DNA from: Truepera sp. | Lineage (GTDB): Bacteria > Deinococcota > Deinococci > Deinococcales > Trueperaceae | Assembly (NCBI GenBank): GCA_032027045.1 | Contig: JAVSMU010000001.1 | Span: forward strand, 2,182,039 to 2,246,038 | Direction: 5' to 3' | Length of the DNA stretch: 64,000 nucleotides | In this document: one piece after another, positions 28,908-36,392 of the stretch | Layout: each line of letters starts with the position of its first letter | Position numbering within the stretch: the stretch's first letter is position 1 | Notes under the pieces: model-generated | What the model saw: only the letters and a program-made list of their open reading frames with translations | What the model was told of the DNA's origin: nothing | Database searches by the model: none | Translations under genes and position numbers: made by a program

Positions 28908-30115
<1,208 letters not shown>

Positions 30116-30225
30116 CGACCCTCCACTGCCGCCGCGTCATCACGTTGCCATAAGCGCGTCGACCGTGAGGCAGCGTACCAGGAGTACGTTCGGGCCGGGC
30201 TATGCCACCGCGTTGGGCCGCGGCG

Positions 30226-30266
30226 GTTACGGCTAGCGCGGGGCGGTGCCGTTACGGCTAGCGCGG
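30226..30266. repeat. Two copies of GTTACGGCTAGCGCGG, 25 bp apart
   Basis: Copies at 30226-30241 and 30251-30266, in the leader of the amidotransferase gene just before its ribosome site. Each copy contains the palindrome GCTAGC. Could be a small tandem duplication or an operator; nothing else supports a function. Confidence 0.5.
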
Positions 30267-30287
30267 CGCCCCGGCCAGGAGTACCCT

Positions 30288-31034
30288 GTGCGAATGCACG
30301 AGTCGAACAGGCCTCGCGTTCTCCTGAGCACGAGCACCAGCATCCGTTCCACGGGCCTCATGCGCGAGGACGCGCTGACCGGCCGTAACTACTCGCAGGC
30401 CGTGGTGGCCGCCGGGGGGCTGCCTTCGATGGTGGCCGTTCTCGACGAAAGGCTTGCGGGCGAGTACGCATCGATCAATGACGCCCTACTGCTGACCGGT
30501 GGCGTCGACGTCGACCCCGCCGCCTTCGGCGCTTACCCCGAGCCGGGCCTGGGCAGCGTGGACGAGCGGCGCGACGCCTTCGAGATTGCCCTTTACCGTG
30601 CCTTCCGCGCCCTACGCAAGCCCGTGCTCGGCGTGTGCCGCGGGCTCCAGGTGATCAACGTCGCGGAGGGTGGCACCCTTCACCAGCACATCCCGGCTCT
30701 GCCCCAGGCCTGGCAGCACGAGCAACGGGACCTGCGCGGGACGCCGCTTCACCCCGTGAAGCTGGAGCCCGGCAGCCGCCTGGCGAGCGCCTTCGGCACC
30801 ACCAGCGTGCGCACGAACAGCTACCACCACCAGGCGATAGACACGGTCGGCGCGGGCCTGAGGGCGGTGGCGCACGCCGGTGACGGCCTGGCCGAGGCCG
30901 TAGAGGAGCGTAGCGGTTCTTGGGTGTTGGCGGTGCAGTGGCACCCCGAGATGTCCTACCGCGAGCATCCCGAACACCTCGCGCCGTTCAACTTGCTGTT
31001 GGACGCCGTGGCGGTCATGAACGCCCTGGCCTGA
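30288..31034 (+). CDS. Class-I glutamine amidotransferase-like hydrolase (peptidase C26, PuuD-like)
   Basis: 248 residues from GTG 30288 (AGGAG ends 6 nt upstream); ATG 30294, 12 nt from the AGGAG, is the alternative. The nucleophile elbow is PVLGVCRGLQVINV (Cys), the oxyanion/LLTGGVDVDPA region precedes it, and the His-Glu pair is in VQWHPEMSY. C26 enzymes hydrolyse gamma-glutamyl compounds such as gamma-glutamyl-GABA. No polyamine genes are nearby to support that pathway. Confidence 0.9.
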   Translation: MRMHESNRPRVLLSTSTSIRSTGLMREDALTGRNYSQAVVAAGGLPSMVAVLDERLAGEYASINDALLLTGGVDVDPAAFGAYPEPGLGSVDERRDAFEIALYRAFRALRKPVLGVCRGLQVINVAEGGTLHQHIPALPQAWQHEQRDLRGTPLHPVKLEPGSRLASAFGTTSVRTNSYHHQAIDTVGAGLRAVAHAGDGLAEAVEERSGSWVLAVQWHPEMSYREHPEHLAPFNLLLDAVAVMNALA

Positions 31035-31137
31035 ACCCGGGACAACCAAGGTTCCACCGCGCGAAGGTCAGGGCTGCCTGCCCTACCGCGCCGAGGAAGC
31101 GTGGCAGTCAGGTCCCCGCGCTCAACCCGGGCGGCCG

Positions 31138-31737
31138 CTACGTCCCCAGGCGCTGAGAGTGTGTTGCCGCCCGCCAGTCCACGCGCGAAACGAGGTCACG
31201 GACGATCGTCTCCAGTGCCCGCCGGTCCTCGATGTCGAAGTTCGCCGGCTGAGCGCTGTCCAGGTCGAGCACGCCCACTACTTCCCCGCCACTTACGATA
31301 GGAACCACGATCTCGGAACGCGAGCGGGCGTCGCACGCGATGTGACCAGGAAACTCCCGCACGTCCGGCACCACCTGCGTTCGGCGTTCGACGACCGCCG
31401 CCCCACACACCCCGCGCCCCACCTTGATGCGCACACAGGCGGGGCGCCCTTGGAACGGCCCGAGGACGAGCTCGCCGTCCTTCATGAGGTAGAAACCGGC
31501 CCAGTTGAGGTTCGGTACGTGATCAAAGATCGCGGCGGCGGCGTTCGCCAGGTTCGCCAACCAATCGGGTTCGCCGTCCGTGAGGGCGTGCACGTAGCCA
31601 CGCAACGTGACGTAACGCTCGGTCTTGGTTGCGCCCGGGGCCGACGGGGCAACGTACCCGACCTCCGTGTCCGAGGTGGCGACGCTGTCGCGGTCGCAGT
31701 CGGGTGCGCTTTCGAGGCCGCCCGCTGCGCCGCTCAT
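31138..31737 (-). CDS. msrC: Free-methionine-(R)-sulfoxide reductase (GAF domain)
   Basis: 199 residues with an unusual 40-residue N-terminal extension before the GAF core. It reduces free Met-R-sulfoxide. Family blocks LNWAGFYL, LVLGPFQGRPACVRI, GVCGAAV and FPGHIACDARSRSEIVVPIV carry the three conserved cysteines Cys101, Cys111 and Cys135. The ATG at 31737 is overlapped by the TGA of a 27-codon ORF (ATGA), and a 26-bp duplication sits across this start, so the true N-terminus is uncertain. Confidence 0.9.
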   Translation of the reverse strand: MSGAAGGLESAPDCDRDSVATSDTEVGYVAPSAPGATKTERYVTLRGYVHALTDGEPDWLANLANAAAAIFDHVPNLNWAGFYLMKDGELVLGPFQGRPACVRIKVGRGVCGAAVVERRTQVVPDVREFPGHIACDARSRSEIVVPIVSGGEVVGVLDLDSAQPANFDIEDRRALETIVRDLVSRVDWRAATHSQRLGT

Positions 31738-31774
31738 CGCGCCGCCGTCGTGGGGGCGCTCATCGCGCCGCCGT
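31732..31774. repeat. 26-bp duplication across the msrC start
   Basis: The 17-bp word GCTCATCGCGCCGCCGT occurs at 31732-31748 and 31758-31774. On the minus strand each copy supplies an ATGAGC start-like sequence; because the unit is 26 bp, the two copies lie in different reading frames. Confidence 0.6.
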
Positions 31775-31817
31775 TGGCGTCGGGGTTGCGGCCGGCCGTT
31801 TCCAGGTCACGCGACAT
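31734..31817 (-). CDS. 27-codon upstream ORF overlapping the msrC start
   Basis: Reads MSRDLETAGRNPDANGGAMS then APTTAAR; the TGA overlaps the msrC ATG by 4 bp. Its ATG is 7 nt after TAACCT, a leaderless-type spacing. It may deliver ribosomes to msrC, or it may be the original N-terminus put out of frame by the 26-bp duplication. Confidence 0.4.
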   Translation of the reverse strand: MSRDLETAGRNPDANGGAMSAPTTAAR

Positions 31818-31824
31818 GCGCTAG

Positions 31825-31830
31825 AGGTTA
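31825..31830 (-). promoter_or_regulatory. -10 box upstream of msrC
   Basis: TAACCT on the minus strand, 7 nt before the upstream ORF ATG at 31817. Confidence 0.45.
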
Positions 31831-31901
31831 CAACTTCGGCCGCTCCAAGACGCGACCAGAGCTGACGACGGGGCGGCATATGCAGGTGCGGTGAGGCCGC
31901 C

Positions 31902-32336
31902 TCAGCTCGGCGCCTTGTTCCCGGCGAAGAAGACCATCCAATGGATCCCGTAGCGGTCCTGCAGGCTGGCGTACAGCTCGGCGAACCCCGTCTCGCCCAG
32001 TGGTTCGGTCACGCGCTCGGCGCCGTCGCTCAGGCGCTCGAATACCTGCCGCGCCTCCGCTGCGCTCTCCGCCCCGATCATCACGTGCGTGGCGTTGCCG
32101 AAGGTGACACCCCCACGTTGCTCGGGCACGTCGCTGGCCATGAGCAACCCGCCACCTGGTAGCTGGAGGGACGCGTGCATGCTGAGGCCGCCTTCGGCCT
32201 CGGACAAGCCGGCAGTTCCCCCCGGGAAGTCCGCGAACCGGACCACATCCACCTTGCCACCAAAGACCGTCTGATAGAACCTGATGGCCTCTTCGGCCTT
32301 ACCTGCGAAGTTGAAATAAGGATCGAACCTTGCCAT
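31902..32336 (-). CDS. VOC-superfamily protein (PhnB/glyoxalase-like)
   Basis: 144 residues. The start ARFDPYFNFAGKAEEAIRFY then FGGKVDVV and the end YGIHWMVFF are typical of the PhnB/3-demethylubiquinone-methyltransferase-like VOC group. These proteins have paired beta-alpha-beta-beta-beta units; most have no assigned activity. Start supported by GAAGGAAGCGAGGA upstream. Single gene. Confidence 0.88.
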   Translation of the reverse strand: MARFDPYFNFAGKAEEAIRFYQTVFGGKVDVVRFADFPGGTAGLSEAEGGLSMHASLQLPGGGLLMASDVPEQRGGVTFGNATHVMIGAESAAEARQVFERLSDGAERVTEPLGETGFAELYASLQDRYGIHWMVFFAGNKAPS

Positions 32337-32476
32337 GAGAAATCCTCGCTTCCTTCTTGCTCGCGTCGCCCCCCGGGGAAGATCGACCGGTCGATGGTAA
32401 GGGGCCTCGGGCCGCCCGTCAGTGAGCCTGGTCGGATCGGTTGCCGCCCTGCCGTATACGAAGCCACGCCACCTGT

Positions 32477-32482
32477 TAGACT
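32477..32482 (+). promoter_or_regulatory. -10 box of the aroF-tyrA leader
   Basis: TAGACT preceded by TGT (extended -10), 7 nt before ATG 32490. It places the transcription start at or next to the first mini-ORF and gives a leader of about 260 nt before aroF. Confidence 0.55.
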
Positions 32483-32489
32483 CTGCGCC

Positions 32490-32534
32490 ATGAATCTCGC
32501 TATCCGGAGGTGGTGCCGTGGACGATGGCTATGA
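32490..32534 (+). CDS. 14-codon leader peptide with two Trp (aroF-tyrA leader, first)
   Basis: Reads MNLAIRRWCRGRWL and stop, with Trp at 8 and 13. The ATG is 7 nt after the TAGACT box, the spacing of leaderless genes in this window, so it would be read from the mRNA 5' end. It overlaps the following Tyr-rich ORF in another frame and contains that ORF's ribosome site. A Trp-sensing function is an inference; two Trp in 14 codons is more than expected by chance. Confidence 0.5.
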   Translation: MNLAIRRWCRGRWL

Positions 32535-32589
32535 CTATAGCTACGCGTATCAGCTCGCCCGACCCTCCGTAGACGGCGGCAGCGCCTAG
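32518..32589 (+). CDS. 23-codon Tyr-rich leader peptide (aroF-tyrA leader, second)
   Basis: Reads (V/M)DDGYDYSYAYQLARPSVDGG then SA and stop TAG. Four Tyr codons fall in seven (positions 5, 7, 9 and 11), three of them TAT, a rare codon in this GC-rich DNA. GGAGG at 32506-32510 is 7 nt before the GTG, one of the better ribosome sites in the window. It lies 160 nt ahead of DAHP synthase, followed by an ACT-domain prephenate dehydrogenase, both Tyr-pathway genes. This fits a leader peptide that stalls ribosomes when Tyr-tRNA is scarce. Confidence 0.7.
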   Translation: MDDGYDYSYAYQLARPSVDGGSA

Positions 32590-32748
32590 GTTCAACGCCG
32601 GGGCGCCCTCACTTACACGCAGCAAGCCTCCGGTCGTTGGTGGCCCACGCCGCACCAAGCGGCCCGCCGGCCCAGCGGTCCGGTCCCACGCGGTGCACCG
32701 TCGACCGCACCCCACATAGCGCCCCAAGGCGCAGCCAGGAGTTGCCCC
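32590..32748 (+). promoter_or_regulatory. Candidate attenuator region between the leader peptides and aroF
   Basis: GGGGCGC at 32600-32606, 11 nt after the Tyr-leader stop, is fully complementary to GCGCCCC at 32719-32725. The latter can instead fold locally as GCGCC-CCAA-GGCGC (32719-32732), ending 4 nt before the aroF ribosome site AGGAG (32737-32741). TTGGTG (32637-32642) pairs with CACCAA (32653-32658), and GCACC/GGTGC words at 32652, 32692 and 32707 allow alternative pairings. No T-run follows, so control of translation or Rho-type termination fits better than a classical terminator. GC-rich complementarity by chance is a real alternative. Confidence 0.4.
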
Positions 32749-33780
32749 ATGGTCATCGTCATGGCCAAGAACGCCCCCACCGAAGTCCTAGACCGTGTGT
32801 TGAGCGAGGTGAAGTCGCTCGGCTTCACCCCGCACGTAAGCGAGGGCGAGTCGCGCACCCTCATAGGCGCCATCGGCCCCGCTCCCACGGAGGAAGTGCG
32901 CGAACACCTGGCCGCGATGCCGGGAGTCGACACCGTCATGCGCATCACGCAGCCCTACAAGCTGGCGTCACGCGAGTTCCGACACGACGATTCGAAGGTC
33001 ACGATCGGCAGGCCAGGGCAGGGTCAGGTCGAGACCGGCAACGGGAACTTCGTGGTGGCCGCCGGCCCGTGCGGCGTGGAGAGCGCCGAGCAGCTCCAGA
33101 ACGCTGCGGCCATCGTCAAGAAACACGGCGGCACCGTGCTGCGCGGCGGCGCCTACAAACCGCGCACGAGCCCGTACTCCTTCCAGGGCCTTGGCGCGGA
33201 GGGTCTCAGGATCCTCGAGGAGGCCCGCGCGGCCACCGGCCTACCCATCGTCACCGAGGTCACTGCGCCCGAACTCGTCGAGTCGGTGGCCGCCAGCGCC
33301 GACATGCTCCAGATCGGCGCACGCAACACGCAGAACTTCGCCCTGCTCGCCGAGGTCGGCAAGTCGGGCAAGCCGGTGCTCTTCAAGCGCGGCATGAGCA
33401 CGTCCATCAGCGAGTTCCTGCAAGCGGCCGAGTACGTCCTAAGCCAGGGCAACCCCAACGTCATCCTGTGCGAGCGCGGCATCCGCACCTTCGAGACGAG
33501 CACCCGCTTCACCCTCGACGTCAGCGCCGTGCCCGTCCTCAAGGAGCTGTCTCACCTGCCGGTGTGGGTGGATCCGAGCCACGCCGCCGGCCGCCGGGCC
33601 CTCGTGCCGTCGCTGGCCCTGGCCGGCGCCGCCGCCGGGGCGGACGGCCTCATCATCGAGGTGCATGCCAAGCCGGAAGAGGCGAAGTCCGACGCCGCCC
33701 AGCAGCTGAACGACGCGGAGTTCGGGCAGCTGATGGCGCGCCTGCGCGGGGTGGTCGCCGCGCTCGGCAAGGCCCTGTAG
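32749..33780 (+). CDS. aroF: 3-deoxy-7-phosphoheptulonate (DAHP) synthase, type I-beta
   Basis: 343 residues from ATG 32749 with AGGAG 7 nt upstream. It condenses PEP and erythrose-4-phosphate, the first step to aromatic amino acids. The N-terminal 85 residues form a ferredoxin-like regulatory domain ([20 protein letters not shown]) as in Thermotoga/Thermus-type enzymes that bind Tyr or Phe. The barrel shows [52 protein letters not shown] and [13 protein letters not shown]. The tyrA gene follows 3 bp later. Expression is probably controlled through the upstream leader peptides. Confidence 0.96.
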
Positions 33781-33783
33781 GCC

Positions 33784-34881
33784 GTGCGCCCGAGGGCGAT
33801 GTTCCGCACCGTCGTCGTCGCCGGCGTGGGGCTCATCGGGGGTTCGGTGGCGCTGGGCACCCGGCAGCGGTTCCTGGCAGACAAGGTCATAGGCTACGAC
33901 CGCGACCCGGGGGTGCTGGACGCCGCCCGCGGCCTGGGCGCCATCGACGAGGCGCAGCTGGCGGAGGGCCCCTGGCTCGAGGAGGTCGACCTGCTCGTCC
34001 TCGCGGCACCCGCGCGCTCCGTCGTCGCGCTCGGTGCTCAGCTCCGGGGCCACCTGAGGCCCGACGCCGTCGTCACGGACGTGGCCAGCGTGAAGGGCGC
34101 CGTCGTCGACGGCATGCGCGCGCCGCGCTTCGTGGGTGGCCACCCCATGGCCGGCAGCGAGCGCGGCGGGATCCTCAACGCCGACGCGGCACTGCTCGAG
34201 AACGCCGTGTGGGCGCTCACGCCCGAGGAGGGCGTAACGGACCCGGCGGCGCTGTCCCTCGTGAGGGCCTTCGTCGAGGGGCTCGGGGCCCGGCCCATCG
34301 AGGTGAGTCCCGCCCAGCACGACCGCCTGGTTGCCACCGTCAGCCACCTTCCCTACCTGGCCGCGGTGGCGCTGACCGCGCTGGTGGACGAGGGCGAGGA
34401 GCGCTCGCTGATGATGCTGTTGGCCGCGGGCGGCTTCCGCGACCTCACCCGCGTCGCTAGCGGTGACCCGGTCATGAGCCGCGACATGGTGGCGGGCAAC
34501 CGTGAGGCGGTGCGCGGCGCGTTGAGCGCTTATCGCCATCAGCTGGAGCACCTGGACGCGCTGCTCGACGACCCGGACTTCCTGCTGGCTGCCGGCGAGG
34601 CCGCCAAGCGGACGCGCGATGGCATCCCCATCGTGCGCCGTGGCCTGCTGCCCGCCCGGCACGAGGTGGTCCTCGCCGTACCCGACAGGCCCGGCGAGCT
34701 GGCCCGCATCACCAACGCGTTGGGCGACGCCAACGTCAACGTCAAGGACATCGAGGTGTTGAGCATCCGCGAGGCGGGCGGCGCCATCCGGCTGGCGTTC
34801 GAGACCGCCGACGAGCTGGTGCGCGGCGCCGCGTCCTTGCGCGCAGCGGGGTACGAGGTCCGCAGTCGGAACGGCGGCTAG
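33784..34881 (+). CDS. tyrA: Prephenate dehydrogenase with C-terminal ACT domain
   Basis: 365 residues from GTG 33784. It oxidises prephenate to 4-hydroxyphenylpyruvate for Tyr synthesis. The NAD motif [28 protein letters not shown] and [15 protein letters not shown] are conserved; the last 75 residues ([20 protein letters not shown] then [12 protein letters not shown]) are an ACT domain, which in this family gives Tyr feedback. Operon with aroF; together they commit carbon to Tyr, which matches the Tyr-rich leader. Confidence 0.95.
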
Positions 34882-34938
34882 CGGGCCCGGCTTCTCGCGC
34901 CAAGGGACGGCCCCTGAACAACGGCCAAGGTGCCGGTT

Positions 34939-34944
34939 TATCGT
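34939..34944 (+). promoter_or_regulatory. Possible leaderless -10 box of the 77-aa gene
   Basis: TATCGT, 8 nt before ATG 34953. Confidence 0.35.
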
Positions 34945-34952
34945 CGGGGCGG

Positions 34953-35186
34953 ATGTCACGCACGGAACTCTCCACCCTTGCCGTCACGCGCGCGGCCACC
35001 TACCTGGACCGCCTGCGGCCGGGGTGGCGCGAGTCGGGCCTGCCCCCGGCCGAGCTGACGCGGCTGTTGGAGTTGTGGTACCTGCGGACGCGCTTCGCCT
35101 ACCGCGTGCCCCTCGAGGAGGTGGTGGCCGCGCTCCTGGCCGCGGCGGACACGGAGCCTCCCGAGGGCCCCGGGCGCCAGGGGTAA
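34953..35186 (+). CDS. Small helical protein of unknown function
   Basis: 77 residues, MSRTELSTLAVTRAATYLDR and then LELWYLRTRFAYRVPLEEVV; mostly amphipathic helix, soluble, no recognised family. It has a leaderless-type start and lies 71 bp after tyrA on the same strand. Codon use matches the neighbours, which supports a real gene, but nothing indicates a function. Confidence 0.5.
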   Translation: MSRTELSTLAVTRAATYLDRLRPGWRESGLPPAELTRLLELWYLRTRFAYRVPLEEVVAALLAAADTEPPEGPGRQG

Positions 35187-35219
35187 CGCGCCAGGGGTAG
35201 CGCCCGCGGCTCAAGCCAC

Positions 35220-36392
35220 TCAAGCCAGCCGGAAGAGCGCGGCCATGCCCTGCCCGCCGCCCACGCACATGGAGACGATGCCGTACTCGGAGCCGCGGCG
35301 GTGCATCTCGGCGAAGAGGTCAGCCGCTATGCGCGCGCCGGTGGCGCCGAGCGGGTGGCCGATGGCGATGGCGCCGCCGTTCACGTTGAGCTTCTCGTCG
35401 GGGATGCCCAGTTCCTGTTGGCAGTAATAGGCCTGGCTGGCGAAGGCCTCGTTGATCTCGATCAGGTCCACGTCGGCGAGCGTCATGCCCGTCTTGGCGA
35501 GCAGCTTGCGGATGGCAGGCACGGGCCCGATCCCCATGATCTCCGGCGCCACGCCCACCACGGCGGCCTGCACGAGCCGCGCGAGTGGCTTCAGGCCAAG
35601 GGCGCCTGCCTCCTCGGCCCGCATGATGACGCTCATGGCGGCGCCGTCGTTGAGGGGGCTCGAGTTCCCGGCGGTCACGGTCGCGGCCTCGTCCTGGGCG
35701 AACACCGTCGGCAGGCTCGCGAGCTTCTCGAGGCTCGACCCGGCGCGCGGACCCTCGTCCTGCTCGACCACCACGTCGTGCCACGCGCCCGCCTCGTCCT
35801 TCACCCGAGTGGCGACGGGCACCACCTGGTCGTCGAAGCGGCCGGCGGCGCGTGCCGCCAGCGCCTTCTCGTGGCTCGCTAGCGCGAAGCGGTCCTGCTG
35901 CTCGCGCGTGATGCCGTAGCGCCGCGCCACCTCCTCGGCCGTCTGGCCCATCGTGTGGTAGGCGCCGGGCTTGCTGCGGACCAGGTCGCGGTTGAGCGAC
36001 ATGTGGTGCCCGCCCATGGGCACGCGGCTGGTGCAGTCGCTGCCGCCGGCCAGCACGACCTCGTTCATGCCGAGCGCCACGGAGTGAATGCCCTGGACTA
36101 TCGTCTGCAGTCCAGAGGCGCAGAAGCGGTTGATGGTGGCGCCGGCGGTCTCGTCGGGCAGTCCGGCGATCTGGACTGCGATGCGCGCGAGGTTGTATCC
36201 CGCCTCGCCCTCCGGGTGGGCGTTGCCCACGAGGACGTCGTCGACGCGGGTCGGCGCCAGGCCCGGGGTCCGCTCGAGCGCCGCGTTTATCACTAGTGCG
36301 GCCAGGTCGTCCGGGCGAGTGTCCTTGAGCATCCCCTTGTGGGCGCGCCCTACGGGGGTGCGGATGGCGGTGGTAATGACGACGTCGTGCAC
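35220..36392 (-). CDS. Acetyl-CoA C-acyltransferase (thiolase)
   Basis: 390 residues from GTG 36392 with AGGAGG 8 nt upstream. It cleaves 3-ketoacyl-CoA with CoA in beta-oxidation, or condenses two acetyl-CoA. The nucleophile Cys is in TINRFCASGLQTIVQG; the C-terminal blocks VNGGAIAIGHPLGATGARI (His) and MCVGGGQGMAALF (Cys) complete the active site. It follows minC by 59 bp on the same strand, an unusual neighbour; no other beta-oxidation genes are present. Confidence 0.94.
   Translation of the reverse strand: MHDVVITTAIRTPVGRAHKGMLKDTRPDDLAALVINAALERTPGLAPTRVDDVLVGNAHPEGEAGYNLARIAVQIAGLPDETAGATINRFCASGLQTIVQGIHSVALGMNEVVLAGGSDCTSRVPMGGHHMSLNRDLVRSKPGAYHTMGQTAEEVARRYGITREQQDRFALASHEKALAARAAGRFDDQVVPVATRVKDEAGAWHDVVVEQDEGPRAGSSLEKLASLPTVFAQDEAATVTAGNSSPLNDGAAMSVIMRAEEAGALGLKPLARLVQAAVVGVAPEIMGIGPVPAIRKLLAKTGMTLADVDLIEINEAFASQAYYCQQELGIPDEKLNVNGGAIAIGHPLGATGARIAADLFAEMHRRGSEYGIVSMCVGGGQGMAALFRLA

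Follow-up and report, generated by a model that had tools for sequence, protein, structure and literature searches.

A conserved, probably tyrosine-sensing leader peptide without a recognizable terminator precedes aroF-tyrA in Truepera

The stretch of Truepera DNA analyzed here (the window; 64,000 nucleotides) contains aroF and tyrA in one operon, preceded by a short Tyr-rich open reading frame (ORF) (Table 1). The adjacency and order of aroF and tyrA were preserved in all 32 loci that extended past aroF. A first-pass annotation of the window had described the short ORF as 23 codons starting with GTG, with GGAGG 7 nt upstream, and translation of the region confirmed this to the base (GGAGG at positions 32506-32510). 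It had also placed the ORF about 160 nt ahead of a DAHP synthase and an ACT-domain prephenate dehydrogenase; the measured gap from the leader stop to the aroF ATG was 159 nt, and Pfam domains supported both gene assignments. The four Tyr codons that it had noted within seven, three of them TAT, are codons 5, 7, 9, and 11 (TAT, TAT, TAC, and TAT). TAT is rare, as claimed: it made up 22 of 447 Tyr codons (4.9%) when 40 long window ORFs were counted, compared with 3/4 in the leader ORF. As expected of amino-acid leader-peptide control, the locus has a short ORF served by a ribosome site of its own (SD GGAGGTGGT, GTG, and stop), as well as the cognate codons, since Tyr codons are enriched and conserved in relatives, with aroF-tyrA or tyrS downstream.

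Table 1. Features of the aroF-tyrA leader region and operon in the window
Feature	Positions	Strand	Basis or remark
-10 box TAGACT, leader promoter	32477..32482	+	Sequence comparison of L001-L006
Promoter-proximal ATG, putative leaderless start	32490..32534	+	In the window opens out-of-frame ORF MNLAIRRWCRGRWL*, ending inside the Tyr ORF
Extended Shine-Dalgarno GGAGGTGGT of the leader peptide	32506..32514	+	GG[AG]GGTG kept in two families
Tyr-rich leader peptide ORF VDDGYDYSYAYQLARPSVDGGSA	32518..32589	+	GTG start, 23 codons, stop ending at 32589; translation and homologue comparison
Conserved core codons 2-5, [DE][DE]GY	32521..32532	+	Variation almost solely at third codon positions
5' arm of candidate 13-bp helix, GACGAUGGCUAUG	32521..32533	+	Leader codons 2-6
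Tyr codon block TAT-GAC-TAT-AGC-TAC-GCG-TAT	32530..32550	+	Sequence; presumed stall site, stalling inferred
3' arm of candidate helix, CAUGGUCAUCGUC	32748..32760	+	Covers aroF start codon
aroF, DAHP synthase type I, ferredoxin-like domain	32749..33780	+	Pfam PF00793, PF18152
tyrA, prephenate dehydrogenase with ACT domain, operon with aroF	33784..34881	+	Pfam PF02153, PF20463, PF01842

We take GGAGGTGGT to be an extended Shine-Dalgarno (SD) sequence because it is complementary to the 3' end of 16S rRNA. Comparison of L001-L006 showed that the leader promoter of the congeners reads TTGACA-about 17 nt-TACACT and that its -35 element is degenerate in the window. An ATG lies directly behind the TANNNT box. 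In 22 of 23 homologues, it shares the reading frame of the leader, the spacings being 30, 33, 39, 45, 51, and 123 nt; a -10 box adjoining an ATG is a layout often seen with leaderless starts in Deinococcus-Thermus (PMC12340547). The window is the sole exception among the 23, with an ATG at 32490 that is 28 nt upstream of the GTG and out of frame, so that the GTG behind the SD must be the start there. The 28-nt spacing may be real or may reflect an assembly indel.

To define the distribution of the element, we ran pattern searches in 111 genomes of the phylum, among which Deinococcus is apparently not represented. The core SD-RTG-[DE][DE]GY was found upstream of aroF(-tyrA) at 21 loci and upstream of tyrS at two, and these 23 regions represent 12 genera in two families of Deinococcota. 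The exact-core pattern matched once per genome, in every case at aroF or tyrS, and a reversed-pattern control for it returned zero matches. A looser core gave no exact match other than at aroF or tyrS in the 111 genomes, and allowing it one mismatch added four unrelated matches. Judged by these searches, the presence of the leader core at aroF and tyrS is not a chance occurrence. Within the genus of the window, the aroF leader core was present in 6/6 genomes (the window and five congeners), and the Tyr-rich short ORF that the first-pass annotation had proposed to look for ahead of aroF in close relatives was thus found in every congener. It was also detected in Trueperaceae genera g4, g5, g6, g12, g15, g16, and g17. 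The second family, f3, which we suspect to be Oceanithermus/Marinithermus, contributed three genera.

The core consensus, GG[AG]GGTG(n)RTG GA[CAG] GA[TCA] GG[CGT] TA[TC], encodes M-[DE]-[DE]-G-Y. Across the 23 homologues, codons 2-5 varied almost exclusively at third positions, D/E exchange included, and the start codon was GTG in 13 leaders and ATG in 10. This third-position drift, together with the alternation of GTG and ATG, indicates that the reading frame is under selection. Tyr occupies codon 5 in 22/23 homologues and a second Tyr codon 7 or 8 in 21/23, with TAT accounting for 44 of the 56 Tyr codons over all homologous leaders. The run of four Tyr codons characterizes the window and the congeners nearest to it; most other leaders have two (GYGY, GYPGY), the L021 and L025 leaders have one each, and the most divergent homologue is L017 (MDGDVYGYPH).

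The element was absent upstream of aroF in several Trueperaceae (L009-L011, L014, L031, and L032), and no Tyr leader was found upstream of a second DAHP synthase, which is fused to a chorismate-mutase-like segment as judged from its N-terminal sequence. In Trueperaceae genera g11/g14 (L013, L015, L016, L176, and L177), the Tyr leader is replaced by a different ORF, which is promoter-proximal and Arg-rich; read from the sequence, this in-frame ORF has no internal SD and a single conserved Tyr in RRY (CGA-TAT, ..RRYPRVRLRA..). Thermaceae aroF genes (L029, L030, L033, and L170-L175) have yet another, aromatic leader, for example MQTSRGFASQNTHFYGYFYWPVVPVRPV, or MRTLGRHFGFYYPAGGALRPA in the Thermus type, followed in most by an intrinsic terminator.

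In genus g2, which has no aroF orthologue, the same element is located 74 to 78 nt upstream of tyrS, encoding tyrosyl-tRNA synthetase (2 loci); the tyrS upstream regions of the other genera lacked the leader. Since aroF and tyrS differ in function and share only tyrosine, this is our strongest argument for Tyr sensing. Sequence and comparison establish the ORF, its conservation and frame, the codon bias, and the linkage to Tyr genes, and on this basis the ORF very probably acts in cis as a Tyr-sensing leader peptide.

How such a leader might act on aroF was addressed by looking for terminators and RNA structure. A promoter and terminator consensus scan of the window leader region gave no match and no hairpin plus T-run. 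A scan of the homologous leaders recognized no intrinsic terminator at aroF or tyrS in Trueperaceae. This second scan was positive in 7/9 Thermaceae aroF leaders and, within f3, solely in L023 and weakly in L028, and the terminator in the ilvB leader of the window's genus provided a positive control. The gap between leader and aroF was no more structured than shuffled sequences (mean z of +0.17), which gives no sign of a mutually exclusive antiterminator; the leader ORF itself was somewhat structured (mean z of -1.47), and the whole window leader folded without excess structure (z of -0.51). Among the homologues, the distance from leader to aroF ranges from overlap to 204 nt, and in f3 the gap from the leader stop is 30 to 38 nt. 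Terminator attenuation needs at least 40 nt (PMC4833913), and the f3 gap is thus too short for an intrinsic terminator.

Several other structural candidates were considered. An Rfam scan of positions 30000-36000 gave no match at E <= 1, and a T-box riboswitch was rejected on the same result. A local hairpin on the Tyr codons (GAUGGC-UAUG-GCUAUC) recurred, yet no more than the codons of the peptide produce. Modeled SD accessibility across the 23 leaders did not differ clearly between the free, Tyr-stalled, and terminated states (0.47, 0.43, and 0.50, respectively). Pairing of the leader 5' segment with the aroF ribosome-binding site (RBS) was strong in L028 only and was rejected as a candidate. 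In this locus, no stop codon separates the leader ORF from aroF, and the entire leader forms a very stable hairpin (z of -5.2), in which the 5' end of the transcript pairs with the aroF SD and start.

The first-pass annotation had proposed a Tyr-sensing attenuator. The Tyr-sensing leader peptide is upheld by its occurrence in 5/5 congeners, in 12 genera, and at tyrS, whereas an attenuator in the classical sense is unsupported: neither an intrinsic terminator nor excess RNA structure was found ahead of aroF in Trueperaceae, and the f3 gap is too short for a terminator. Transcription attenuation of the trpL/pheL type, with alternative terminator and antiterminator hairpins, would fit the cognate codons of the peptide and has precedents close by, in the Thermus/Meiothermus-type aroF leaders (HFYGYFYWP, FGFYYP) and in the ilvB leader of the window's own genus. 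Hairpins with T-runs were recovered in most Thermaceae leaders, but neither the window nor the other Trueperaceae leaders at aroF or tyrS yielded one. This explanation is very unlikely, and as far as can be seen from the sequence, the leader is not a trpL-type attenuator. The main rival is Rho-dependent attenuation, in which translation of the leader would control access of Rho to a C-rich, weakly structured gap and a Tyr-paused ribosome would block termination. In the GC-rich members, the gap is indeed rich in C and relatively poor in G (0.44 and 0.30, respectively, in the window), it has neither excess structure nor a U-tract terminator, and the terminator-free Cys leaders of Mycobacterium have been interpreted in this way (PMC1262725). 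However, the f3 gap is short for Rho loading, the C excess is missing in the low-GC members L017, L018, and L121, and ordinary GC-rich 5' untranslated regions commonly show a C excess too; we regard Rho involvement as conceivable but rather unlikely.

Two further explanations treat the Tyr codons or the whole ORF as incidental. The leader ORF could be an "antenna" that boosts aroF translation via ribosome reinitiation (PMC4833913), for which the strong, conserved SD, the short distances in f3, and the overlap with aroF in L028 can be cited. Distances of up to 204 nt to aroF speak against it, and it leaves unaccounted for the Tyr at codon 5 in nearly all homologues, the TAT excess, and the linkage to both tyrS and aroF, making it improbable. 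A conserved DNA or RNA element, such as an operator or riboswitch, is suggested by the good nucleotide-level conservation of GG[AG]GGTG...GATGGCTAT and by some species-specific pairing between the 5' segment and the post-Tyr segment (mean z of -0.87). Such an element is difficult to reconcile with the third-position drift, the GTG/ATG swaps, the preservation of frame between the upstream ATG and the leader, and the lack of an Rfam match, and it is very unlikely.

For the Tyr-sensing leader peptide, the link to aroF in Trueperaceae is probably not an intrinsic terminator, and we examined whether leader and aroF start could pair directly. The pairing analysis covered nested pairings and segment duplexes. 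In the window, GACGAUGGCUAUG and CAUGGUCAUCGUC form 13 contiguous base pairs, which are included in the minimum-energy fold. Compared with shuffled sequences, the helix reached a P of <0.05 in 9/19 tested leaders, and the nine most negative z values among the 19 belonged to eight Trueperaceae aroF loci and to L025 of f3. At Trueperaceae aroF, pairing of the Tyr block with the aroF start exceeded that with gene control windows (mean z of -2.03), and the aroF start was the best of 84 windows for this pairing in L001-L004, L007, and L018. The window helix was also better than that of synonymous recodings (P of 0.004), with no clear gain in L008, L012, and L019. The nearly identical rows from the genus of the window count as about one observation for the helix.

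The helix was absent in f3 as a group (mean z of +0.65) as well as at tyrS (+1.1); among the Trueperaceae loci, mismatches and breaks exceeded compensatory changes. It therefore cannot be a general mechanism. Both arms are protein-coding as well. For these reasons, we keep the helix as a hypothesis for Trueperaceae, and a helix-based translational link to aroF, although the link that we prefer, is put forward tentatively.

Taken as a whole, the explanation that we consider best, and quite likely, is that the leader reports the level of charged tRNA-Tyr to aroF-tyrA, with a translational link favored. What we infer from the sequence features is that ribosomes stall, in which direction expression responds, and what role the helix plays. 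Translation of the leader would begin at the GTG behind the strong SD; most relatives would have a further start at the in-frame ATG at the 5' end of the transcript. When Tyr-tRNA is scarce, the ribosome would pause at Tyr codons 5, 7, 9, and 11, and aroF-tyrA expression would rise; when it is plentiful, the ribosome would leave, and expression would fall. In the helix-based form, leader codons 2-6 would pair with the aroF start region, and the 13-bp helix would be opened by a ribosome held at the Tyr codons. Points that weigh against the explanation are the two homologues with a single Tyr codon, the Trueperaceae that lack the element or have another short ORF in its place, the similar modeled SD accessibilities, and the precedent of the LEU element described below. 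The conserved acidic pair and the double in-frame start go beyond what the textbook model explains. A fuller and more speculative reading, to which we give limited credence, is a terminator-free, Tyr-specific system in which the mRNA of the Tyr codons is the antisense of the aroF start and stalling frees that start, with translation starting in frame both at a leaderless ATG and at a strong internal SD-RTG, a conserved acidic [DE][DE]GY nascent motif that may aid pausing or drop-off, and redeployment to tyrS in one genus.

Other leader peptides were encountered in the same genome. Upstream of trpE (L219, G000:C1 near 1830103-1830519, - strand) lies a leaderless Trp leader, MVSLHRWTGALGRWRWRA, which is conserved in the genus and has no U-tract terminator; its pairing with the RBS resembles the aroF helix and is statistically weak. 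Upstream of ilvB (L228, G000:C1 near 1235513), there is a promoter-proximal leader peptide, MTDSRFGATISWGLILSSRGRAG, and behind it an intrinsic terminator, GCCCCGCCG...CGGCGGGGCTTTTC; both are kept in congeners. No leader was found at pheA in the genus. The trpE and ilvB leaders are leaderless leader peptides that match their own pathways, which we count as support for the Tyr-sensing leader.

In the open-licence literature searched, we found no Tyr-specific leader peptide, the nearest being AroR; an earlier description elsewhere is possible. Elsewhere, tyrosine genes have been credited to T-boxes (PMC1262725). Within one lineage, the same gene, aroF, carries leaders that differ by family, Tyr-only without a terminator or aromatic with one, and the same Tyr leader serves two Tyr genes, aroF and tyrS. 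Together, these make the function of a terminator-free leader directly testable in organisms in which leaderless translation is common.

The window leader resembles a ribosome-stalling amino-acid leader peptide and, in the scans described above, lacks the terminator of the trpL/pheL type. AroR, the leader of Corynebacterium glutamicum aroF, contains Phe-Tyr-Phe and responds to limitation of Phe, not Tyr, by transcription attenuation (Neshat et al. 2014, as summarized in PMC11802643). Both are aromatic-codon leader peptides immediately upstream of a DAHP synthase gene, but the window leader has Tyr only and no terminator, and its element also occurs at tyrS. The Thermaceae aroF attenuators are alike in gene, promoter-proximal ATG, and aromatic codons and differ in their peptide (FYGYFYW or FGFYY), mixed aromatic codons, terminator in most, and lack of an internal SD-RTG. 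In the actinobacterial LEU element of leuA, a run of leucine codons pairs with the SD, and mutation of these codons left regulation unaffected (PMC1262725); it is the closest known system in the arrangement of the pairing and also a warning. Both elements have a run of cognate codons able to pair with a downstream translation start and no terminator; a conserved pseudoknot characterizes the LEU element, in which the SD is the pairing partner, whereas the window leader would pair with the start codon region, in one family only, and we claim no homology. Escherichia coli pheL/pheST and trpL likewise have cognate-codon leaders ahead of genes for biosynthesis or for a synthetase, pheA and pheST paralleling aroF and tyrS, but they use terminator and antiterminator hairpins, which we did not find in the window-type leader. 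In erm/cat-type translational attenuators, the inducer is an antibiotic, and the sequestering helix is well defined and tested; the logic proposed here is the same, in that a ribosome stalled on the leader would expose the downstream start site.
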